Virus record (IMG/VR): IMGVR_UViG_3300042922_000646
Coordinates: 1 to 45,127 of that record
From: a virus
Reading direction: 5' to 3' (one strand)
DNA length: 45,127 nucleotides
Numbering within the stretch: the first letter of the stretch is position 1; every line of letters begins with the position of its first letter. Under the pieces are notes generated by a model, which saw nothing but the letters and a program-made list of their open reading frames with translations, made no database searches and had not been told where the DNA came from. This document shows positions 661-45,127 of the stretch, one piece after another. The position numbers were made by a program, and so were the translations under genes.

Positions 661-711
661 AACTTGTTCGTAATGAGGGGGTCGCAGGTTCAAATCCTGT
701 TATCGGCTCCA
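661..711 (+). other. attP core: 3' half of a tRNA-Thr (CGT) gene
   Basis: The segment reads like the 3' half of a tRNA: an anticodon-loop-like TTCGTAA (667-673), variable loop, T arm (GCAGG, TTCAAAT, CCTGT at 683-699) and acceptor end TATCGGC-T-CCA finishing at 711. No matching 5' half (it should start GCCGATA) lies upstream, so it is not a functional tRNA gene. The integrase gene is about 140 bases away and arm repeats lie on both sides. This is the expected structure of a phage attP that restores the 3' end of a host tRNA-Thr gene on integration. The exact crossover cannot be read from one site. Confidence 0.75.
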
Positions 712-853: not shown

Positions 854-2065
854 TTAACGAGTTTTATTTTTAAATCTCTTATCTAAATCGGAAAGTGATT
901 TTCTTCTTTCTAGAGGAATTAAATGGAAATAACGGTTATAAGTAACATATATATCGCTGTGTCCCAATCGCCGCGAAACATAACTAATATCTTCATGTTC
1001 GGCAAGTAAGTGACTCGCATGAGTGTGGCGCAAGCAGTGAAATGTCAAACGTGTAATTCCGCAATCATCACAAAAATCGGGGAACCAAGAACTTATGGTA
1101 TCAGGATGGAGCGGATTGCCGTCTTCCCGACAAAAAATTAAATTTCCTTTACTGTAATTGTCTCCGAGTCTGTTTTTATACTCGGTTTGTTTTTTTGCGT
1201 GACTACGAAAAACATCGAGAACGGCCTTTGTCACTTCGATTTTGCGACGTTTTTTGTTCTTGGTAAGCTTATACTCATAGCCTCTTTCTTTTGTGTGCGA
1301 CAACGATCGCTTAACAAAAACAGTGCTATTACTATAATCGATTGCGTCCCACGTAAGTGCAAGTAGTTCGCCGCGCCGCATCCCGGTCCGCAATGCGACA
1401 AAAATTAAAGCGTAATAGGACGTGTCAGCGGTGTGGCGCTCTAGTACGCCTATTTCTTTTTGAGAGAAAACCTTTACAAGATCGCTATCGGGGTCGTAGT
1501 CTTCAGGAATTGCAGGCTCGGGCAAATCAATTTTAAGAGCAACGTTTTTTTCAATTATTTCATCTTTAAAAAGAGCATCGTTTAAAATCCTGCGAATAAC
1601 GCTGTGGTGATACAAAACAACATCCTTGCTTACTGGTTTAAATGGCCTGGTTTTTCCGGTTTTTTTCCCGCTCTCTAATTGCCCGACTTCGTATATTTTG
1701 TTATAGAAATCCATTAAATCTGAACGCTTAAGCTCGTGAACCTTAATATGTCCCAACCAAGGGACTATGCGCAACGTAATACAATTCTTATAACTTTCAA
1801 ATGTCTTTGACGATAATTTTAGTGCGGGCGGCGTGGTCAGCCATTTTTCAAAATACTCCTTAATAGTCAATTTAGAGGGAGGGACATAAGTGTTTTCTGC
1901 CAGTTTAACTAGAATTTTAAGTCTCTCGGTTTTGGCTTCTTCCATATCTGTTGTATTTAAAAGATGAGAAACTGTCTTCCGTTTTTTTGTAACTGGATCA
2001 ATACCATAATCGACAATAAGAGTAATGGATTTTTTAGAGCGCGGCAGAATTCTTACAGTTGCCAA
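854..2065 (-). CDS. int: Tyrosine-recombinase integrase
   Basis: 403 aa, the usual length for Gram-positive phage/ICE integrases (Tn916/phi-type). An N-terminal arm-binding region (about 1-60) is followed by a core-binding SAM-like domain (about 65-180) and the catalytic domain (about 200-400). Catalytic residues are visible: R230 in TGMRRGELLAL, H343-x-x-R346 in FHCLRHTHASHLL, H369 in RRLGHS, and the nucleophile Y379 in NRYFHLIP. It catalyses recombination between attP (540-800, just downstream) and a host tRNA-Thr gene. It is co-oriented with and 3 bases from the repressor gene, so it is probably expressed from the lysogenic promoter. All active-site residues are present. Confidence 0.95.
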   Translation of the reverse strand: MATVRILPRSKKSITLIVDYGIDPVTKKRKTVSHLLNTTDMEEAKTERLKILVKLAENTYVPPSKLTIKEYFEKWLTTPPALKLSSKTFESYKNCITLRIVPWLGHIKVHELKRSDLMDFYNKIYEVGQLESGKKTGKTRPFKPVSKDVVLYHHSVIRRILNDALFKDEIIEKNVALKIDLPEPAIPEDYDPDSDLVKVFSQKEIGVLERHTADTSYYALIFVALRTGMRRGELLALTWDAIDYSNSTVFVKRSLSHTKERGYEYKLTKNKKRRKIEVTKAVLDVFRSHAKKQTEYKNRLGDNYSKGNLIFCREDGNPLHPDTISSWFPDFCDDCGITRLTFHCLRHTHASHLLAEHEDISYVSRRLGHSDIYVTYNRYFHLIPLERRKSLSDLDKRFKNKTR

Positions 2066-4924: not shown

Positions 4925-5677
4925 ATGTCGCATTTAAAACGCCGTGTTAAAGCAGGGCGGGTTATTGATACAAATGTCTACCATACCGCAAGGCATAATT
5001 CACCAAAAAGACCAAGACAGAAAAATCACAATACCACTTCAGAGCAGCAGAGAAAAAATAACGAGCGAAGATCACAAAACACCCTGTTCCAGATAATAAG
5101 TGCAAACTTTCGCCCTGATGATTACTACCTGACATTTACCTACGGAAAAGAGAAAGAAGAGCCGCCACCGGAAGAGGCAAAAAAATACTTAGGCAAGTTG
5201 CTGGACAAGCTGCGGAAAATTTACAAGAAGCTTGGAACGCCATTGAAGTACATCGGAGTGACCGAACACCAAAAATGCAGGATTCACCACCACCTATTAA
5301 TCAACAATATCGGAATTAGCATAAAGCAGATAAAAAAATATTGGGAACACGGCTTTATGAAGCTTCAACTATTCGCTGGTGAATGGGAAGACTGCGAACG
5401 CCTTGCAAACTACTTTGTAAAAGAGAGCGCCAATACCTTCAACACTGATAAAAAAGTTCACGGCCTACGATGGATTAGTAGCAAAAATTTAATCCACCCC
5501 AAACCGGAAGTAAAAGTCGTAAATGGCAGTAGCTGGCTCGAAAACCCCAAACCGATAAAGGGATATTACATAGCATTCGTGCGGCGCGGCTGGACACAAC
5601 ATGGATACCCATACATGTTCTACCGGATGGTTCAACTGCCGGGTAGCGAGGACGAAACATTTTGGGGTGATGGATAA
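4925..5677 (+). CDS. HUH-type rolling-circle replication initiator (Rep)
   Basis: 250 aa, ATG at 4925. The basic N-terminal region (1-55) is followed by the three HUH endonuclease motifs in order: motif 1 YLTFTYG (68-74), the His motif RIHHHLLI (119-126), and the Tyr motif ANYFVKE with Y163 and K166. This is the fold of Rep proteins of rolling-circle plasmids and of small single-stranded DNA phages. It would nick one strand at an origin and remain bound to the 5' end. In a dsDNA tailed phage it suggests plasmid-like replication, supported by the nearby SSB and ParABS genes. The origin was not identified. Closest named family not certain. Confidence 0.75.
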   Translation: MSHLKRRVKAGRVIDTNVYHTARHNSPKRPRQKNHNTTSEQQRKNNERRSQNTLFQIISANFRPDDYYLTFTYGKEKEEPPPEEAKKYLGKLLDKLRKIYKKLGTPLKYIGVTEHQKCRIHHHLLINNIGISIKQIKKYWEHGFMKLQLFAGEWEDCERLANYFVKESANTFNTDKKVHGLRWISSKNLIHPKPEVKVVNGSSWLENPKPIKGYYIAFVRRGWTQHGYPYMFYRMVQLPGSEDETFWGDG

Positions 5678-8562: not shown

Positions 8563-8710
8563 TAAGATAAGCCGTTGCGGATCGTGCCAGTTTTCGGAAG
8601 CGATATACCCAAACGGACGAATAAAGTACTGCGTAGTTCATAAGGAAAATGTATCTGCACAGCGGGTGATTTGTGAAAAGTATACGCCCACAGGGGAGGG
8701 AAAGCAGTAA
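8555..8710 (+). CDS. 51-aa Cys-rich protein
   Basis: ATG at 8555 with GGGGAGGGG upstream, ending at TAA 8710 where the next ATG overlaps. Product MRDKISRCGSCQFSEAIYPN with C-x2-C then C and C further on (KYCVVH, VICEKY), a small zinc-binding protein of the type that recurs at 12001, 12757 and 13851. Function unknown. Confidence 0.65.
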   Translation: MRDKISRCGSCQFSEAIYPNGRIKYCVVHKENVSAQRVICEKYTPTGEGKQ

Positions 8711-9129
8711 TGCAAATAGTCCCGATAGACTTTGCAGAAGCTAATGCCTTTGTAAAGCAATATCACCGGCACCATAAACCAGTGGTAGGTTGTAAGTTTT
8801 GCATAGCAGCGGCAATCGGGGAAAAGATTGTCGGGGTTGCAATTGTCGGCAGACCAGTAGCGCGGCGCTTGGACGATGGATGGACATTAGAGGTTAATCG
8901 CACTTGTACAGATGGAACTAAAAATGCTAACAGCATGCTATACGGGGCCGCTTGGAGAACAGCAAGGGCGCTTGGATACCGAAAACTGATTACCTACACT
9001 TTACCAACGGAAACAGGTTCAAGCCTTCGCGGTGCTGGTTGGAAATGTATCGGTGCAGCTGGTGGCGGCAGTTGGAATTGTACCGAGCAGGCCAAGGATA
9101 GACAAGCATCCATTACAGCAAAAGCTTAA
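8710..9129 (+). CDS. XF1762-like (GNAT-fold) protein
   Basis: 139 aa, ATG at 8710 overlapping the previous stop codon. Features MQIVPIDFAEANAFVKQYHR, then a repeated-Gly segment (IVGVAIVGRPVARRLDDGWT) and LEVNRTCTDGTKNANSMLYG. This matches my memory of the XF1762 family, small phage proteins with an acetyltransferase-like fold that occur beside DNA-metabolism genes. Substrate unknown. Confidence 0.75.
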   Translation: MQIVPIDFAEANAFVKQYHRHHKPVVGCKFCIAAAIGEKIVGVAIVGRPVARRLDDGWTLEVNRTCTDGTKNANSMLYGAAWRTARALGYRKLITYTLPTETGSSLRGAGWKCIGAAGGGSWNCTEQAKDRQASITAKA

Positions 9130-9147
9130 ATGGGAGGTAGGGCAATA

Positions 9148-9537
9148 ATGCAAGGTTTGTATAGAGGTAAGAGGATAGATAACGGCGAGTGGGTGTATGG
9201 TGATTTATTGCAGGACGGAGATACTGACGCATTTATTGCCACCAGATATACTGCATACTCAGACGGATTTTGCCAGGTTTTCGGGGAGCCCGTTCATGCT
9301 GAGACAGTAGGGCAGAGTACCGGATTGCCGGATAAAAACGGCAAGTATATCTACAAAGGCGATATATTTAAAGCGAGATATGATGTGTTGGTAGTTGTGG
9401 AATGGGATGCAGATTGCGCTAGATTTTTAGGATTCACGATTGAAAAAGAAAGAAAAATTGTATACATCGGACAAGAGCCAGCAGTAGAAGTAATAGGAAA
9501 TCGATGGGATAACCCAGAGCTATTGGGGGTTAGGTAA
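9148..9537 (+). CDS. YopX family protein
   Basis: 129 aa from ATG at 9148 (ribosome binding site GGGAGG at 9132-9137; an in-frame ATG at 9130 lacks one). It begins MQGLYRGKRIDNGEWVYGDL and contains the family hallmarks TGLPDKNGKYIYKGDIF and IGNRWDNPEL. YopX proteins (from phage SPbeta) are widespread small phage proteins of unknown function, predicted to multimerise. Confidence 0.9.
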   Translation: MQGLYRGKRIDNGEWVYGDLLQDGDTDAFIATRYTAYSDGFCQVFGEPVHAETVGQSTGLPDKNGKYIYKGDIFKARYDVLVVVEWDADCARFLGFTIEKERKIVYIGQEPAVEVIGNRWDNPELLGVR

Positions 9538-10323
9538 ATGCTGCTAGAAAATACGCTATGGTATGGCGTTGTAGATAAGGTGCAGGTAGCCATAGACCGG
9601 ATAAGACAGTTTGAGCCTCCAGAGGGTTATTATGTGGCCTTTAGCGGGGGCAAGGACAGTATAGTGGTGCTGGACCTGGTTAAACGGGCCGGGGTGAAAT
9701 ATGATGCACACTATAATCTGACTACTGTAGATCCTCCTGAACTGGTTTATTTCATCAGGGAACATCATTCGGACGTAGAAAAGCATATGCCAAATAAAAC
9801 TATGTGGCAACTGATCGAGCGCAAAGGTTTCCCAAGTCGAAAAATGAGATATTGCTGTGCGATATTAAAAGAGTCTGGAGGAAAAGGAAGGCTCTGCGTG
9901 ACCGGAGTTAGGCGAGAAGAAAGCCATAATCGTTCTAAAAGGAAAATGGTTGAACAGTGTTACCGAGATCCAAGCAAGCGATATTTAAACCCTATAATTG
10001 ATTGGAGTAGTCACGATGTTTGGCAGTATATTCACGGTAACAAACTTCCGTATTGTTCTTTGTATGACGAAGGGTTTGAACGACTTGGTTGCATAATGTG
10101 TCCGCTGTCTAATCCAAAGCAAATTGCAAGAGAGGCTGCGCGATGGCCTAAATATGCAGAAGCGTATCAAAGAGCGGCTTTAAAATCTTTTGAGTACAAA
10201 AAAGAGCGCGGATTAAGCCTGCCGCCTAACTGGACAAGCGGAACTGACATGTATGAGTGGTGGATAAAACAGGCCAGCGCCGAAAAAGAAAACCCGGATC
10301 AAAACGAACTGGACTACGAGTAA
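9538..10323 (+). CDS. PP-loop / PAPS-reductase-like protein with Fe-S cysteines
   Basis: 261 aa; ATG at 9538 directly abuts the YopX stop codon. The PP-loop SGGKDS (36-41) binds ATP in the adenylylating N-type ATP pyrophosphatase superfamily. The cysteine set C106-C107 and C185-x2-C188 (RYCCAIL and LGCIMCP) is the [4Fe-4S] signature of APS reductases and of DndC. This suggests a sulfur-transfer or nucleotide-activating reaction and not simple sulfate reduction, because no sulfur pathway genes are present. The following gene is a radical SAM protein. A role in phage DNA or nucleotide modification is possible but not shown. Confidence 0.85.
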   Translation: MLLENTLWYGVVDKVQVAIDRIRQFEPPEGYYVAFSGGKDSIVVLDLVKRAGVKYDAHYNLTTVDPPELVYFIREHHSDVEKHMPNKTMWQLIERKGFPSRKMRYCCAILKESGGKGRLCVTGVRREESHNRSKRKMVEQCYRDPSKRYLNPIIDWSSHDVWQYIHGNKLPYCSLYDEGFERLGCIMCPLSNPKQIAREAARWPKYAEAYQRAALKSFEYKKERGLSLPPNWTSGTDMYEWWIKQASAEKENPDQNELDYE

Positions 10324-10401
10324 ATTAGGCCATTAACACACCTATACATGTAACAAAACAAATATATAGATGCGGTATGTAACATAGTGGGAGGGGAAGA
10401 T

Positions 10402-11250
10402 TTGAACGGAATAATTCGGGTTTTCCCGCGAAGGACTGAAATGACACCGTTAGACGATATGAGTTTTTCGAGGGTATTTATAAACGGAATAGGTGACGAT
10501 AGCGATTTACCGACAATGTTTATTCCTGATCATGATGCCGTGCATATCTGCTGCGTTTTTACTTGGGACAAACATCGAGCAGAGGAACTTCAATATCAGT
10601 GGCAAGGGAAAACGGATAAGCCCGTACTGATTGGAGGACCGGCGTATGATGCCGATGGAGGCGAGTTCGTACCCGGTATGTACATGAGGCAGGGCGTAAC
10701 GATTACAAGTAGAGGGTGCAATAATCAATGCCCCTGGTGTTTTGCGTGGCGGCGGGAAGGGCGATTAAGGGAATTACCCGTACACGCTGGCAATGTTGAG
10801 CAAAGCAATAATTTCCTTCAATGCTCCATAAAACACCGGCGCACAGTCTACGACATGATGAAAACCCAAAGTCAAATAAGCTTTCGCGGTGGATTGGAAA
10901 CGGCCTTGTTGACCAACTGGGACATTGAAGAAATGCGCTCTCTAAGGATTGCCGACTTGTGGTTAGCGTGTGATACCAAGGGGGCCATAAAGAAACTGCG
11001 AAGTGCCTGCCAGCGGCTTCATAATGCCGGATTTAGCCAGAACAAAATTAGATGTTACGTGCTGATCGGCGACGATATGGCAGAAAACGAGTCGAGGTTA
11101 AGGCAGGTATACGAGGCCGGGGCGCTTCCGTTTGCTCAGTTATTTCAGCCAGAAACGCCTATAGAGTACTCAACAGAGTGGAAACAGTTTGCGAGGACAT
11201 GGAGTAGACCGGCAGCTTATAAGTCTAAATTGAAAAAGGAGCGCAGCTAA
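10402..11250 (+). CDS. Phage radical SAM protein
   Basis: 282 aa from TTG at 10402, chosen because GGGAGGGG precedes it. The [4Fe-4S]/SAM motif CxxxCxxC is at C106, C110, C113 (SRGCNNQCPWCF). N-terminal residues 40-90 contain a possible Rossmann-like portion (DKPVLIGGPAYD) and the second half continues the TIM-barrel type (ISFRGGLETALLT, KIRCYVLIGDD). It resembles uncharacterised radical SAM proteins found in Firmicutes phages. It probably acts on a nucleic acid or nucleotide. A 78-base gap with no clear signal separates it from the PP-loop gene. Confidence 0.85.
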   Translation: MNGIIRVFPRRTEMTPLDDMSFSRVFINGIGDDSDLPTMFIPDHDAVHICCVFTWDKHRAEELQYQWQGKTDKPVLIGGPAYDADGGEFVPGMYMRQGVTITSRGCNNQCPWCFAWRREGRLRELPVHAGNVEQSNNFLQCSIKHRRTVYDMMKTQSQISFRGGLETALLTNWDIEEMRSLRIADLWLACDTKGAIKKLRSACQRLHNAGFSQNKIRCYVLIGDDMAENESRLRQVYEAGALPFAQLFQPETPIEYSTEWKQFARTWSRPAAYKSKLKKERS

Positions 11251-14271: not shown

Positions 14272-15042
14272 ATGAAAAAGATAGCAATAATTAACCTAAA
14301 GGGCGGAGTAGCTAAGACAATGTCCTCTGTTAACATGGCCCATATACTTGCTGCCGTCTACGAAAAGCGCGTGCTGCTCATAGACAATGACAAACAAGGT
14401 AATTCGTCAAAGTTTTTTGGCCTGTATGGATATGACAAGCCGAGCATAGCGGACCTGCTGACAGAACGCAATTACGACATATCTAAAGTCATTAATCACA
14501 CGCCCTACCGAAATCTTGATTTGATTAGCGCAAACATGAACCTGCTGAACGCCAATTTAAAAATAATTCTCGATCCTTCGCGGCAGCAGCAAACCATACT
14601 CAGGAAAGCGTTAATGCAAATCGAGAACAACTACGACTATTGCATAATGGACAATGCGCCAGACATCAACATAAGTATCATTAATAGCCTGGTAGCCGCC
14701 GACGAGGTAATCGTGCCTATAAAGATCGATCAGTTTGCCTTTGACGGCTTAGAACAACTTACGGAGCAGTTTGAAACAATTAGAGAGTTTAATCCGGCAC
14801 TGAAGTTCAGAGGATGCTTAGTCACTCAATTCACCAAAAATGACGTAAATCTACAAGGTGAATCGTATTTAACCGAGCAAGGGAAATATCCGGTATTCGA
14901 AACGCATATCAGGAGAACGGAAAAAATTGACGAGAGTACCTTTGCCAGCCAACCTATAATTGAATATTCCCGGCAGTGCGGCGCTTCAAAAGATTATTTG
15001 AAGTTCGTGAAGGAATATTTAGTCAAAGAGTATGTTAAATAA
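14272..15042 (+). CDS. parA: ParA-type partition ATPase
   Basis: 256 aa, ATG at 14272 with AGGAGG upstream. The deviant Walker A box of ParA/MinD is clear: NLKGGVAKTMSS (K10, K15, T16), followed by Walker A' LLIDNDKQGNSSKF and the switch YCIMDNAPDINIS. It would segregate or position low-copy plasmid DNA together with ParB at 15083. No N-terminal HTH, so it is the short (type Ib-like or Soj-like) ParA. Its presence in a temperate phage points to a plasmid prophage stage. Confidence 0.92.
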   Translation: MKKIAIINLKGGVAKTMSSVNMAHILAAVYEKRVLLIDNDKQGNSSKFFGLYGYDKPSIADLLTERNYDISKVINHTPYRNLDLISANMNLLNANLKIILDPSRQQQTILRKALMQIENNYDYCIMDNAPDINISIINSLVAADEVIVPIKIDQFAFDGLEQLTEQFETIREFNPALKFRGCLVTQFTKNDVNLQGESYLTEQGKYPVFETHIRRTEKIDESTFASQPIIEYSRQCGASKDYLKFVKEYLVKEYVK

Positions 15043-15067
15043 AAATGTGTCCAAGTTGGACACATTT
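15043..15067 (+). promoter_or_regulatory. Palindrome between parA and parB: candidate parS/operator
   Basis: Perfect 10-bp arms AAATGTGTCC (15043-15052) and GGACACATTT (15058-15067) around AAGTT. It starts directly after the parA stop codon and lies 15 bases upstream of parB. It differs from the chromosomal parS consensus. It is the obvious candidate for a ParB binding site or an autoregulatory operator; with no U-run it is a poor terminator. Confidence 0.6.
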
Positions 15068-15082: not shown

Positions 15083-16003
15083 ATGGCAAAGTTTAGCCTG
15101 AGCGACCTACTTAACACCCAGTCAAAACCGCAGGCCGTGGCGGCGGAATTTAAAATCGAAAAGATCAGTGTGTATCAACTAGAGCCGTCGAAAGACAATT
15201 TCTATAGCGTAGCCGATACTGACGACCTAAAGGACTCAATAGAACTAATTGGTATTCAGCAAAACTTAACAGTAACGCCAATACCGGGAACGGACAACTA
15301 CAAAGTAATATCTGGACACCGGCGCAGAATTGCCAGTATGAGACTGGCGGACGAAGGCAAGGAACAATTTGAGTTTGTTCCTTGCCGCATAGAAAACAAT
15401 CTCGACGAGATAAAAGAAAAAATAATGCTCATCTACACCAACTCTACTACTAGGAAAATAAGTGATTGGGAAAAGGTAGAGCAGTTAGCGCAGCTTAAAG
15501 CACTTTTGCAAGAATACAAAAAGACCCACGAAATACCAGGAAGAGTTAGAGAATTATTAGCCGAGGCGTTAAATGTTTCGCCTACACAAGTAGAACGCCT
15601 GGAAAGCATCGATAACAACCTTGTGCCAGAGTTTAAGGAAGAATTTAAGCAAGGAAATGTAAAAGTATCTGTTGCCGCTGAATTATCCAAACTGTCAGCA
15701 GCAGATCAGAAGGCCGTATATGAAACCCACAAGGAAAAGGGAGCAACAAACCTAAACGCTGTTAGGGCGCAGAAAGAAAAGGTCAGTAAGCCGCAGGAAG
15801 CAATAAACCCGACAATCACAGCCTTAACGCTAGTCAAGGACTTGTTAGAAAAGGAAATTGCCAGGATAAGGCCGGATGATGATAAAACAGTATTAAGCGA
15901 GTATTACCGCATACTAACATCAAAAGCCAGGGAAATAGATCAAGAGCTGCATTCTCTAATGGGCAGCGATATGTTCAAGGAGTGCAGCGGGGCGGCGGAA
16001 TAA
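15083..16003 (+). CDS. parB: ParB-type partition protein
   Basis: 306 aa, ATG at 15083 with GAGGTGAAGGGG upstream. ParB/Srx domain at about 25-125 with the CTP-binding box GHRRR (78-82) and LEPSKDNFYSV; a helix-turn-helix region follows (VRELLAEALNVSPTQVERLE, about 155-175), then a C-terminal helical dimerisation part. It should load at parS (probably 15043-15067), spread, and be moved by ParA. Normal length for plasmid/phage ParB. Confidence 0.9.
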   Translation: MAKFSLSDLLNTQSKPQAVAAEFKIEKISVYQLEPSKDNFYSVADTDDLKDSIELIGIQQNLTVTPIPGTDNYKVISGHRRRIASMRLADEGKEQFEFVPCRIENNLDEIKEKIMLIYTNSTTRKISDWEKVEQLAQLKALLQEYKKTHEIPGRVRELLAEALNVSPTQVERLESIDNNLVPEFKEEFKQGNVKVSVAAELSKLSAADQKAVYETHKEKGATNLNAVRAQKEKVSKPQEAINPTITALTLVKDLLEKEIARIRPDDDKTVLSEYYRILTSKAREIDQELHSLMGSDMFKECSGAAE

Positions 16004-41624: not shown

Positions 41625-41858
41625 ATGCTTAAAAATAAATTAGAGAAGATACGATTTAAGTTGAGCGATAAAAAGGGTAGCGAAGTAACCCAACTTGAAT
41701 TTGCAAAAAGCGTGCTAGATGTAGGGCAAAGTCAATATAATCGATGGGCGCGCCAAGAAGTACAGCCTTCATTGGATATGGCATTTTGGTTGGCTGCGAA
41801 GCTAGATTGCAAAATAGAAGATTTATTTGACTATACTCCTCCGAAAACGGGGGAGTAA
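41625..41858 (+). CDS. XRE-family regulator
   Basis: 77 aa, ATG at 41625 after GGTGGTG. Helix-turn-helix in residues 18-60 (EVTQLEFAKSVLDVGQSQYN, RWARQEVQPSLDMAFWLAAK), ending LDCKIEDLFDY, typical of compact XRE repressors. It lies 57 bases past the SOS gene. Likely represses its own promoter and possibly the FtsK module downstream. Confidence 0.85.
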   Translation: MLKNKLEKIRFKLSDKKGSEVTQLEFAKSVLDVGQSQYNRWARQEVQPSLDMAFWLAAKLDCKIEDLFDYTPPKTGE

Positions 41859-41945: not shown

Positions 41946-43172
41946 ACGACGAGTATACTGTCAGAAATTAAGAATGATATACGTTCTATTTTGCTCCCTA
42001 TGTTCGGTTTAGATATTCCGCTATCTGTAACAGAAACCATAGAAGCGCTATGGCCCGAAACACTCAGGCCGCAGATCCATGCAAAAAAGAAAGCTACTAA
42101 CGGCTATGCATTTACAATCGCGCTTCCTGCAGGAATCAGCTTTAAGGATTTTTGCAGTAAAGCAGATTATTTTAAGGACGCAGCTGGCGGCAATAAAGTA
42201 ACTGTATCTATTAGTCAGTCAGGCAAGATGGCAATTCTACAGATCAACACTAATTTGCTAGGGGATTATTTTAAGTATACTTTTGATTATCCACGGTCCG
42301 GTATTTTGCCGGTTCCCATTGGTTACAGTCAAACCGGATTAGAAGTTATTGACCTGGCTGCATTGCCACACATGCTGATCGGCGGCACTACTGGAGGCGG
42401 AAAGTCTAACAGCATACATGTTATAGTCAATTCCCTTTTAAGCCTTGCAGAGCCGCCTATAATCATCCTGATTGATCTGAAAATGTCGGAGTATAACTAT
42501 TTGGAAGATCAAGTTATGTTGGTTACTGACATTGAAATGGCTGGTCATGCTCTTAATCGATTAGTACAGGAAATGAAGAAGCGGCAGCAGATATTAAAAC
42601 AATCAAGATTTGTGAATGTAGCTAAGTATAACGAGAAGTGTACTCAGAAAATCCCCTACATAGTCTTAATTATTGATGAGTTGGCGGAAATGAAAAACAA
42701 GGATGCCCAGGAAGATCTAGAAACATTGCTCCGTTTGTGTCGGGCTAGCGGTATTTGCATTGTCGCTGCCACACAAAGACCATCAAGCAAGATTTTTACC
42801 AGTAAATCATTTGGAGATGCTAAAGCAAATTTCGTAGGCAGATTATGCTATCAAACCATTTCGAGCATAGATAGCAGAATTATACTGGACTCAGGGGAAG
42901 GGGCGGACCTGCCGAAGATACCCGGCAGGGCATATTGGCGGTTAGGGCGTGAACTAATTGAAATTCAAACACCATACTTAGACCCGGAGGAGGTTATATC
43001 AGTTGACCAATTTTCGACGCCAGTGTTACGAACGGAATTCAAGGATAATGGCAACATTGGCAGAGTGGGGGGTATTGGATACGCAGCAACTTCAAATATT
43101 ATGCTTTCCATCGGAACGGGTAGCACAAAGAAGACTGACGGCACTATTTCAAGAAGGAAGAATAAAGCGTAA
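41946..43172 (+). CDS. FtsK/SpoIIIE-like DNA translocase (coupling protein type)
   Basis: 408 aa if begun at ACG 41946, 7 bases after GAGG; the first standard start (TTG 41991) has no ribosome binding site, and the codons before it (ILSEIKNDIRSI) look coding. FtsK-HerA ATPase: Walker A GGTTGGGKS (about 146-154), LIDLKMSEYNY, Walker B IVLIIDE (239-245), then AATQRPS (274-280). It resembles the TcpA/ConQ-type coupling ATPases of Gram-positive conjugative plasmids and ICEBs1, and replication-linked ATPases of plasmid-like elements. No membrane segment or gamma DNA-reading domain is visible. Overlaps the next gene by 170 bases. Confidence 0.85.
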   Translation, partial: TTSILSEIKNDIRSILLPMFGLDIPLSVTETIEALWPETLRPQIHAKKKATNGYAFTIALPAGISFKDFCSKADYFKDAAGGNKVTVSISQSGKMAILQINTNLLGDYFKYTFDYPRSGILPVPIGYSQTGLEVIDLAALPHMLIGGTTGGGKSNSIHVIVNSLLSLAEPPIIILIDLKMSEYNYLEDQVMLVTDIEMAGHALNRLVQEMKKRQQILKQSRFVNVAKYNEKCTQKIPYIVLIIDELAEMKNKDAQEDLETLLRLCRASGICIVAATQRPSSKIFTSKSFGDAKANFVGRLCYQTISSIDSRIILDSGEGADLPKIPGRAYWRLGRELIEIQTPYLDPEEVISVDQFSTPVLRTEFKDNGNIGRVGGIGYAATSNIMLSIGTGSTKKTDGTISRRKNKA

Positions 43173-43455
43173 CACTCAGGTGTCGCCATACTTGTACTAC
43201 GTAAACAACCAAAAAGAGCCGCTAAAGCGTATAGGCGTAAATTGGGCTAGGTTGTGGATTGCAAAGCGGTGCAGAAGCTGGGAACGCATAGAATTTGATT
43301 ATGATAAATGCATTTGTACGGTGACTAATACGGTCACAGGAGGCACTAAGGAATACTGGATAGTTGACAACGCCTTTAATCTACCGGGCGACCACTCGCT
43401 GATCGTTACTGATGATTGGATAAACAAAATAAGAGGGGAGTTACTATGTACATAG
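43003..43455 (+). CDS. Replication-relaxation family protein
   Basis: 150 aa, TTG at 43003 after GGAGGAGG. Winged-helix N-terminus (ERNSRIMATLAEWGVLDTQQ, LQILCFPSERVAQRRLTALF) with following NQKEPLKRIGVNWARLWIAK, as in Replic_Relax (PF13814) proteins of Firmicutes plasmids and ICEs, suggested to relax plasmid replication control or bind DNA. It usually sits next to an FtsK-like gene. The start lies well inside the FtsK gene, an unusually long overlap. Confidence 0.8.
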   Translation: MTNFRRQCYERNSRIMATLAEWGVLDTQQLQILCFPSERVAQRRLTALFQEGRIKRNTQVSPYLYYVNNQKEPLKRIGVNWARLWIAKRCRSWERIEFDYDKCICTVTNTVTGGTKEYWIVDNAFNLPGDHSLIVTDDWINKIRGELLCT

Positions 43456-43739
43456 TTGTTATGGCGGCGGCTTTGCTAATACCGGCAACTGCTCACGCCG
43501 CAGGGCTTAAAGATTTAATTACCGGCGCTTCTCCAGATGCAAAAACGTATCTGTATGGTGTTATTGCAATATTTGCAGTAGGAATAGTAGGGTTAGCCGG
43601 TTCAATGATTTTATCAGCGTTCGGCAATGCAAAGGTTGCCAGATTAGTGACAAACGGGAGCTACCTGGCTGCAGTTGGTATATTTTTGTCATTGGCATTG
43701 ATGCTATTTAAACAGTTTGTGGAGTTGGTCGTCGGCTAG
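43446..43739 (+). CDS. Pilin-like (TrbC/VirB2-type) membrane protein
   Basis: 97 aa from ATG at 43446 with GAGGGGAG upstream. A signal peptide (VVMAAALLIPATAHAA, cleavable after AHA) is followed by two hydrophobic helices (YGVIAIFAVGIVGLAGSMIL and NGSYLAAVGIFLSLALMLF). This matches the layout of type IV secretion pilins, though many small phage membrane proteins look similar. The FtsK neighbour makes a transfer role plausible. Confidence 0.6.
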   Translation: MYIVVMAAALLIPATAHAAGLKDLITGASPDAKTYLYGVIAIFAVGIVGLAGSMILSAFGNAKVARLVTNGSYLAAVGIFLSLALMLFKQFVELVVG

Positions 43740-43864
43740 TCGTTTGTTTGTTCGGCAGCTATACACTATGGCGTACAAAAACAAGCTCCAAAACCGCATG
43801 GAGGGATTGTCTTTCTCCTATAAAACAGGGTTTCGGTAAGTAATTAAAATAGAGGGGGATTAGC

Positions 43865-44068
43865 ATGGAAAAAATCAATGATATGGTGAACAAAGTTATC
43901 GATGAGTGCGAGAAACAAGGAATACCTTTTCTTGCTGCGTTTGGATTAGAAAAGATTGCCATACTTGAATATGCGCCGGACAATACCCCGGAGCGGATCA
44001 AGAAGGCCCGCACTACATTAATTAGTACAACGAAGCAGGCAAGGCGGCAAATAGAAATTGAGGCATAA
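43865..44068 (+). CDS. Hypothetical 67-aa protein
   Basis: ATG at 43865 after GAGGGGG. Helical: MEKINDMVNKVIDECEKQGI and a C-terminal basic helix (KARTTLISTTKQARRQIEIEA). Last gene of the FtsK module. Not recognised. The 125 bases before it hold no clear signal. Confidence 0.6.
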   Translation: MEKINDMVNKVIDECEKQGIPFLAAFGLEKIAILEYAPDNTPERIKKARTTLISTTKQARRQIEIEA

Positions 44069-44267: not shown

Positions 44268-44315
44268 TTTGACTACGAATCAAAAGGTCGCAGGTTAAAA
44301 TTCTATCGGACGTTA
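44268..44315 (+). other. tRNA-Arg (ACG)-like 3' remnant
   Basis: An anticodon arm (TTTTGA, loop CTACGAA, TCAAAA) reads ACG, followed by variable loop AGGTC and a T-arm-like GCAGGTTAAAATTCTAT with a damaged stem, then ATCGGAC. No 5' half is present upstream. It shares GGTCGCAGGTT-AAAT-like bases with the attP core. Most likely a decayed tRNA 3' fragment from an earlier integration or recombination. Confidence 0.55.
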
Positions 44316-44326
44316 ATTACAGACAT

Positions 44327-44362
44327 AAAAAGGCTTTGTGGAAATTCCGCAAAGCCTTTTTT
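44327..44362 (+). terminator. Strong terminator after the tRNA-like remnant
   Basis: AAAAAGGCTTTGTGG (44327-44341), AAATT loop, CCGCAAAGCCTTTTTT (44347-44362); one G-T pair. Typical of tRNA operons, in agreement with the remnant above. Confidence 0.85.
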
Positions 44363-44642: not shown

Positions 44643-45017
44643 TTGATAACTCTAAAAGATATGGGGCTAAAAGCAAAAATTCTGATACCGGCCTGCAAAG
44701 AAGCTGGAGTGAGAATGGACAAAGATCGCGCGTCAAAAATTATTCACGCTCAGACTGTGATAAAGCCTGCTGAAATGGAGGTGATAAGCAGAATACTCAA
44801 TAAGACAATGGACGAGCTATATACCAAACTTGGCTCAGAAGAAGGGGAAATCCCTTGCCCGCTGCTTACATGGCTATGGGGAACAGAAATGATTTGTTGG
44901 AGCTATGCTTGTAATTTATGGGACGACGATGCTCAGTGGTGTAGGTATAAGGGGCTGAAACGGTTTGCAACACGAAACAACCCGACAGTCGAAACTATCG
45001 GGCAGGGTTCTTCTTAA
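44643..45017 (+). CDS. XRE-like regulator under SOS control
   Basis: 124 aa from TTG at 44643, chosen for AGGAGGTGG just upstream (an ATG at 44580 has none). Residues 1-60 (LKAKILIPACKEAGVRMDKD, HAQTVIKPAEMEVISRILNK, TMDELYTKL) follow the outline of small XRE regulators ending in a DELY/ELF motif; residues 65-124 are an unusual Trp/Cys-rich tail (CPLLTWLWGTEMICWSYACN). Its promoter carries a LexA box, so it is switched on by DNA damage. A candidate antirepressor or lytic inducer; unproven. Confidence 0.65.
   Translation: MITLKDMGLKAKILIPACKEAGVRMDKDRASKIIHAQTVIKPAEMEVISRILNKTMDELYTKLGSEEGEIPCPLLTWLWGTEMICWSYACNLWDDDAQWCRYKGLKRFATRNNPTVETIGQGSS
44981..45002. terminator. Convergent hairpin between the two regulators
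   Basis: CCCGACAGT (44981-44989), CGAA loop, ACTATCGGG (44994-45002), one mismatch. It lies in the overlap of two converging genes (44643 plus strand, edge XRE gene minus strand); the T-rich stretch is weak. Confidence 0.45.
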
Positions 45018-45127
45018 TAGGTTCTATATTGTATTTCCAACGCAAAAAATCTTTGTAGAGGTTTATTTCCTGCATGGCTGGTACTGGGAATTCATCCTTT
45101 TCTCTAAAAAAATCTTCTAATGTTATA
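44995..45127 (-). CDS. XRE-family regulator, C-terminal part (runs off right edge)
   Basis: Reverse-strand frame entering at base 45127 and ending with TAG at 44995-44997. It reads ITLEDFFREKDEFPVPAMQE then INLYKDFLRWKYNIEP, the normal continuation of an XRE domain whose N-terminal 45 residues stand at 1-135. Joining the two needs about 30 more bases (3n+2) coding for about 10-11 residues at the third helix. So the window is best seen as a circle opened here. Confidence 0.8.
   Translation of the reverse strand, partial: ITLEDFFREKDEFPVPAMQEINLYKDFLRWKYNIEPIKKNPAR

Follow-up and report, generated by a model that had tools for sequence, protein, structure and literature searches.

A nuclease-less version of the prophage FtsK-type DNA-motor module in a temperate siphophage of probable Negativicutes affinity

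When genes of conjugative type stand in the genome of a tailed phage, does the phage move from cell to cell as a plasmid would, or does it turn the machinery on its own DNA? The question was raised by positions 41946–44068 of a virus record of 45,127 nucleotides (IMG/VR IMGVR_UViG_3300042922_000646, analysed over its whole length and called the window below), which an earlier note had read as an ICE- or plasmid-like transfer module composed of an FtsK/TcpA-like ATPase, a Replic_Relax protein and a pilin-like protein. The record of 45,127 bases encodes a temperate tailed phage, with genes for a tyrosine integrase, a CI/LexA-like repressor, an HUH Rep, an SSB, a Mom-like protein, a PAPS reductase, a radical-SAM protein, ParA and ParB; its virion and lysis genes include those for terminase, portal, a capsid fused to a protease, tape measure, tail proteins and holin. 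The Mom-like DNA modification protein, the PAPS reductase and the radical-SAM protein lie in a row (8710–11250) and form a possible DNA-modification set; no Rfam RNA matched in the window.

The first gene of the block (41946..43172, plus strand) certainly encodes, as judged by its profile matches and motifs, a double-stranded DNA translocase ATPase of the FtsK/TcpA type, as had been claimed. Its motor domain matches PF01580 (E=3.8e-23, 82.5 bits against a cutoff of 24) and phrog_1358 (8.7e-65), it carries the Walker-type motifs GGTTGGGKS and IIDE, and its best relatives among solved structures are the entries 6o1w-z, named 'DNA translocase coupling protein' (E 8e-32), followed by FtsK (1e-27). 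The 6o1w-z entries are, we presume, the TcpA coupling protein of pCW3, which with its relatives in Firmicutes ICEs and IMEs would be the best-scoring solved-structure kin of the ATPase. TcpA brings an N-terminal transmembrane region of its own and operates alongside a T4SS and a relaxase, whereas the window has neither T4SS nor relaxase and its ATPase has no evident N-terminal transmembrane domain; likewise no transmembrane segment was called in the same chain in the FtsK homologues of loci L002–L006 and L011, where hydrophobicity is borderline (0.9–1.35). The first canonical start of ftsK is a TTG at 41991. Its homologues start 15 codons further upstream with GTG, TTG or ATG, at a position (41946 or close by) where the window has ACG, which is possibly a non-canonical or weak start, translation otherwise beginning at the TTG; the same ACG is found at this position in L002 and L006.

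The second gene (43003..43455, plus strand) starts inside ftsK and encodes a Replic_Relax-type winged-helix protein of 150 residues. The last ~56 codons of ftsK overprint it in an overlap of 170 nt, within which constraint falls on the downstream frame (pN/pS 0.12, 0.27) and spares the ftsK tail (1.6, 2.6). The Shine-Dalgarno sequence of the second gene, GGAGGAGG (42986..42993, plus strand), lies within ftsK codons that are themselves conserved (D-P-E-E), which suggests translational coupling of the two genes. The claim that this is a Replic_Relax protein holds for the N-terminal winged helix only: the match to PF13814 is limited to residues 17–68 and lies below threshold (E=0.0048, 17.4 bits against a cutoff of 25.3), and profile-profile comparison with Replic_Relax (hhalign, E=8.6e-8) covers ~60 residues of the winged helix and nothing beyond. 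The active-site motif of PD-(D/E)xK type is absent from the window protein and from all other Negativicutes-type modules seen. These comparisons support a winged helix akin to that of MOBC/Replic_Relax proteins such as CloDF13 MobC and pAD1 TraX, in a protein that has lost the nuclease-like part. (CloDF13 itself was left out as a MobC control, its PLSDB record having no annotated mobC.) For the window copy, identity as a relaxase was rejected, the PD-(D/E)xK-like part being missing and the PF13814 match below cutoff. Structure prediction for the protein was weak (pLDDT 58) and Foldseek returned no match.

The third gene (43446..43739, plus strand) encodes a small membrane protein with a signal-like N-terminus and two transmembrane helices in a hairpin. 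In these respects it resembles TrbC/VirB2 conjugative pilins, but its similarity to PF04956 (TrbC) is below cutoff (E=0.0012 for the longer ORF, 0.015 from the likely start at 43446) and a match, also below cutoff, is seen in one of five homologues; the pilin identity proposed for it was accordingly rejected in favour of a generic two-transmembrane hairpin. AlphaFold models of the winged-helix and hairpin proteins gave no usable fold match. The block ends with a gene for a 67-residue protein (43865..44068, plus strand; homologues in L002, L005, L006 and L011), and a 17-bp inverted repeat with a T-run (44327..44361, plus strand), picked up by a repeat/terminator scan, is likely the operon terminator. 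Upstream lies a small XRE/HTH_3 regulator gene (41625..41858, plus strand; PF01381, 4.8e-5), which is a conserved operon neighbour (44–69% identity in 5/5 IMG/VR relatives, L002–L006) and after which the terminator scan places a terminator-like hairpin (41834-41857). The genes for the ATPase, the winged-helix protein and the membrane protein are not chance ORFs, since they are under purifying selection: pN/pS is 0.09–0.39 in most pairs (0.09–0.17 against L002 and mostly 0.2–0.4 against other relatives), with 0.65 for the hairpin gene against L006. The closest relative (L002:6013-6450) has a truncated winged-helix gene and has lost the hairpin gene, so the full gene set is not always needed.

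The block belongs to the phage. Close relatives, with 67–88% identity in FtsK and 57–84% in the winged-helix protein, occur in five IMG/VR contigs, in two genomes as chromosomal prophages (G309, G082) and in two more on MAG contigs (G006, G007), a module relative is present in 4/380 genomes of the class, and the XRE-FtsK-wHTH(-hairpin) block is conserved across Negativicutes phages and prophages. No terminal repeats, direct or inverted, were found at the ends of the 45,127-base record. A single XRE regulator gene is split between its two ends (1-135 and 44995-45127). Read in reverse complement, the first ~135 bases give the N-terminus of the regulator (MDISGRILFLLDAFGITLNHLADRSGVTQSTLQNIVTGKSATAQV) and the last bases carry the reading on (ITLEDFFREKDEFP...), with ~32 nt missing between them, as estimated from an intact XRE homologue (L003:7273-7554) that lies just downstream of the same module. 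The phage genome is thus circular or circularly permuted and nearly complete. An assembly mis-join with a neighbouring element, which the earlier note had named as the finding that would overturn its reading, is excluded by the recurrence of the same block in independent contigs and prophages and by contig ends that join in a single gene; on sequence grounds the three module genes are the phage's own. On the circular map they lie on the integrase side, the integrase being found across the contig junction. Ku-like proteins (non-homologous end joining), recognised by eye, are encoded upstream of the module in two relatives (L003:2980-3792 and L002:2931-3737); the window has none in that place, again by eye.

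The tyrosine integrase (854..2065, minus strand; phrog_1, 1e-61) adjoins a 45-nt segment (667..711, plus strand) that corresponds to the 3' half of tRNA-Thr(CGT) and is flanked by TTGTATGCA repeats at 541-561 and 768-800. The segment matches tRNA-Thr(CGT) 3' halves with 2–3 mismatches in 9/379 genomes of the class, the tRNA-Thr identity resting on an anticodon loop read by eye, and a reversed control gave 0 matches. From its position between the repeats and beside the integrase it is probably the attP core. Its tRNA-Thr matches point to a Negativicutes host for what appears to be a temperate, integrating siphophage, the class name resting on one relative (L012), a Negativicutes MAG. An att-like scar, a 29-nt exact copy of part of a Negativicutes tRNA-Arg(ACG), adjoins the module (44268..44296, plus strand); it was dropped as an attP candidate in favour of the tRNA-Thr fragment adjoining the integrase. 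G309 has a tRNA-Arg remnant (L108) at a distance of 32 kb from another copy, which suggests an att site used by other elements. The scar, together with the lost nuclease part, the hairpin lost from L002 and the non-canonical ftsK start, might be taken to mean that the block is a decayed, non-functional remnant of the transfer region of a mobile element; this seems quite improbable, as the pN/pS values of all three genes indicate continuing constraint.

The genes that had been cited as signs of plasmid replication elsewhere in the genome are real: an HUH-type replication initiator (4925..5677, plus strand; PF23343, motifs FTYG, IHHHLLI and YFVKE), an SSB gene, ParA (14272..15042, plus strand; PF13614, 2.9e-46), a ParB-like protein (15083..16003, plus strand; phrog_4715, 1.8e-62) and, between the last two, a perfect 25-nt palindrome (AAATGTGTCCAA-T-TTGGACACATTT, 15043..15067) as a candidate parS. 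This candidate sits in a phage that also bears an integrase. The HUH Rep, the ParA-palindrome-ParB arrangement and the circular or permuted genome are shared with phage-plasmids; the window differs from them by its integrase and tRNA-Thr(CGT) attP, and relatives of its module include chromosomal prophages. For the lysogenic state the integrase and attP argue for integration, while the contig ends show a circular or permuted form. That the module is tied to plasmid-like replication is not borne out. The window's Rep had no match in any of seven module-bearing relatives (a search run without a positive control, on virus contigs that may be fragments), a pattern scan of viral contigs found no relative of it, and it was dropped as a module component, and the window's ParA had none among related viral contigs with the module, which may also be fragments; because of these missing matches the module appears to be independent of both genes.

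Evidence for conjugation-like transfer was sought in mating genes and an oriT, as the earlier note had proposed. Profiles of VirB4/TraG-type T4SS ATPases (PF19044, PF03135) were silent in the window and in five related viral contigs, which may be fragments, while the controls were positive; no oriT for mobilisation was recognised. These results give no support to a conjugative or ICE module: no VirB4/TraG ATPase was found in the sequences searched and the PD-(D/E)xK-like part of the relaxase is missing, to which the failed pilin match may be added; shared ancestry with coupling-protein/relaxase pairs is plausible. It is very improbable that the block is a TcpA/TraB-like transfer or mobilisation cassette, by which the phage would spread through contact as well as by virions. 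The motor would in that case pass the excised circle to an adjacent cell or to a helper channel; the nuclease-less winged-helix protein would aim the motor, the hairpin would anchor it, and the phage HUH Rep would nick the circle, if it is nicked at all. Also improbable, though less so, is an IME-like arrangement in which coupling protein and MOBC-type relaxase let the excised circle ride a helper T4SS. The 'DNA translocase coupling protein' match speaks for it, IMEs do have compact sets of coupling protein, relaxase and integrase without a T4SS, PF13814 being the MobC relaxase (PMC5357655), MOBC relaxases are related to PD-(D/E)xK enzymes (PMC11389934, PMC12857230), and Bacillus-type homologues keep a PD...E-x-Q motif. 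That motif and its domain are nevertheless missing from every Negativicutes-type module seen, the window's included; the IME survey pairs MobC with VirD4 and not with TcpA (PMC5357655), no oriT was recognised, and the HUH Rep, a conceivable substitute relaxase, lies at a distance of ~7 kb and had no match in the relatives.

The distribution of the module gives a different picture, and shows that the combination is not rare in tailed phages, as had been supposed. The proposed search for the FtsK-Replic_Relax pair found it in many Firmicutes prophages, commonly of the Bacillus group, and in GBSV1, SpaA1 and plasmids of Brevibacillus and Thermoanaerobacterium; it has been published as an 'additional module' (PMC3335513). 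More remote kin of the ATPase are widely spread, with matches in 238 phage records, and FtsK of SpaA1 type is present in 66 IMG/VR contigs, mostly Bacillus-group prophages. An ORF in the Replic_Relax position adjoins FtsK in 74/75 loci scored; 66/74 of these ORFs have the PD...E-x-Q motif, and it is found in none of the six Negativicutes-type loci, which include the near-identical L004 and L011. The module of the B. cereus group and Geobacillus (SpaA1 P26-P27-P28, GBSV1 ORF41-43, phIS3501 p50) likewise has FtsK and, next to it, a Replic_Relax gene that overlaps it downstream, together with a small two-transmembrane protein and a position between the lysis genes and the integrase, and integrase lies just downstream of the module in L005, L006, GBSV1 and SpaA1. 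The window has the same marks, FtsK before a Replic_Relax winged-helix gene, proximity to the integrase and an adjacent two-transmembrane protein, but lacks the PD...E-x-Q nuclease-like domain and has its hairpin downstream instead of upstream. Its module is of an ordinary kind but takes a new form, that of a known prophage DNA-motor module rearranged and stripped of its nuclease. The phIS3501 authors noted that most similar phages of the B. cereus group carry an extra FtsK-family module near the integrase, and left its role open, perhaps in aiding lysogeny or integrase reactions (PMC3335513). Of two near-identical phages of B. subtilis, one carries an additional 2.5 kb that holds FtsK, Replic_Relax and HTH genes and one further gene (PMC9476937), a membrane protein, FtsK and an HTH protein are listed consecutively in SpaA1 (PMC3398947), and the authors of Pony suggested a part in DNA injection (PMC3853050); none of these accounts gives an experimentally established function.

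The main new argument of the comparison is a gene-fusion pattern. A hairpin gene stands directly upstream of FtsK in ~57 Bacillus/Geobacillus-type loci (52 of SpaA1 type plus those of GBSV1 type; the counts overlap), and the SpaA1-type and GBSV1-type hairpins are related (hhalign, 6e-9). Brevibacillus-type loci (L097-L101, L009) have no separate hairpin gene, and their FtsK has ~65–90 additional residues ahead of the Walker A motif, among them a hydrophobic segment (maximal 19-residue mean hydrophobicity of the N-terminus 1.45–1.69 vs 0–1.15 in the Bacillus/Geobacillus type). Because the hydrophobic extension occurs where the separate gene is absent, the hairpin is probably the detached membrane anchor of the motor. 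Against this stands the fact that the Negativicutes hairpin is likened to those of Bacillus by topology and linkage, homology between the downstream and upstream hairpins not being detected.

Taken with what is known of FtsK modules, the evidence favours, at about even odds, reading the block at 41946–44068 as a lysogeny-associated, membrane-tethered double-stranded DNA-motor operon that acts on the phage's DNA and does not conjugate it. The ATPase would form a hexamer moving along double-stranded phage DNA, the winged-helix protein may load the motor at a phage site and/or regulate the operon, and the hairpin would tether the motor to the membrane, standing in for the membrane domain that is part of the FtsK and TcpA chains themselves, at their N-terminus. 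Such an operon could handle the circular or excised phage DNA at the membrane or septum, to position it, to resolve it into monomers or to assist the integrase; that its biological role lies in lysogeny, excision or replication is given an equal chance of being right or wrong.

Two other uses of such a motor have some evidence in their favour. A membrane-sited motor paired with a protein that binds DNA, and that in Bacillus is a nuclease, might attack or block incoming DNA, as an anti-superinfection or defence system: the accessory position next to the integrase would suit this, the ATPase domain is common to the defence proteins SspH/HerA, and Bacillus modules combine FtsK, a PD-(D/E)xK-like protein and a membrane hairpin. 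It is an unlikely function here, since PADLOC recognises nothing beyond the generic ATPase domain and gives 0 matches for the winged-helix and hairpin proteins, and loss of the nuclease-like part leaves the window no effector. Slightly less likely still is a part in sporulation, the motor either bringing the DNA of the phage or prophage into the forespore or reshaping SpoIIIE-driven translocation. A review raises the idea for phage FtsK/SpoIIIE homologues, and reports that the FtsK of Fah falls in a delayed expression class during infection, which counts against it (PMC4113786). The observed carriers are mostly kin of spore formers (Bacillus, Geobacillus, Brevibacillus, Thermoanaerobacterium and the sigG/spoIIR-bearing Negativicutes G082), yet FtsK matches also occur in phages of Listeria, Enterococcus and Mycobacterium. 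In G082 (C1, ~2580000-2584600; L029/L030) one end of the module-bearing prophage abuts a gene that reads by eye as host sigG, with spoIIR-like and serine-recombinase genes beyond it, a possible insertion beside sporulation genes.

Many Firmicutes prophages, then, have a motor of FtsK type in their accessory region, and the comparison suggests, for the preferred reading of a motor operon working on phage DNA, a unit of three parts: a motor, a winged helix with or without a nuclease, and a membrane hairpin that can fuse to the motor. This three-part unit is a testable proposal for the route by which phage motors reach the membrane, and the naturally nuclease-less form in Negativicutes sets motor activity and DNA binding apart from whatever relaxase-like function there may be.
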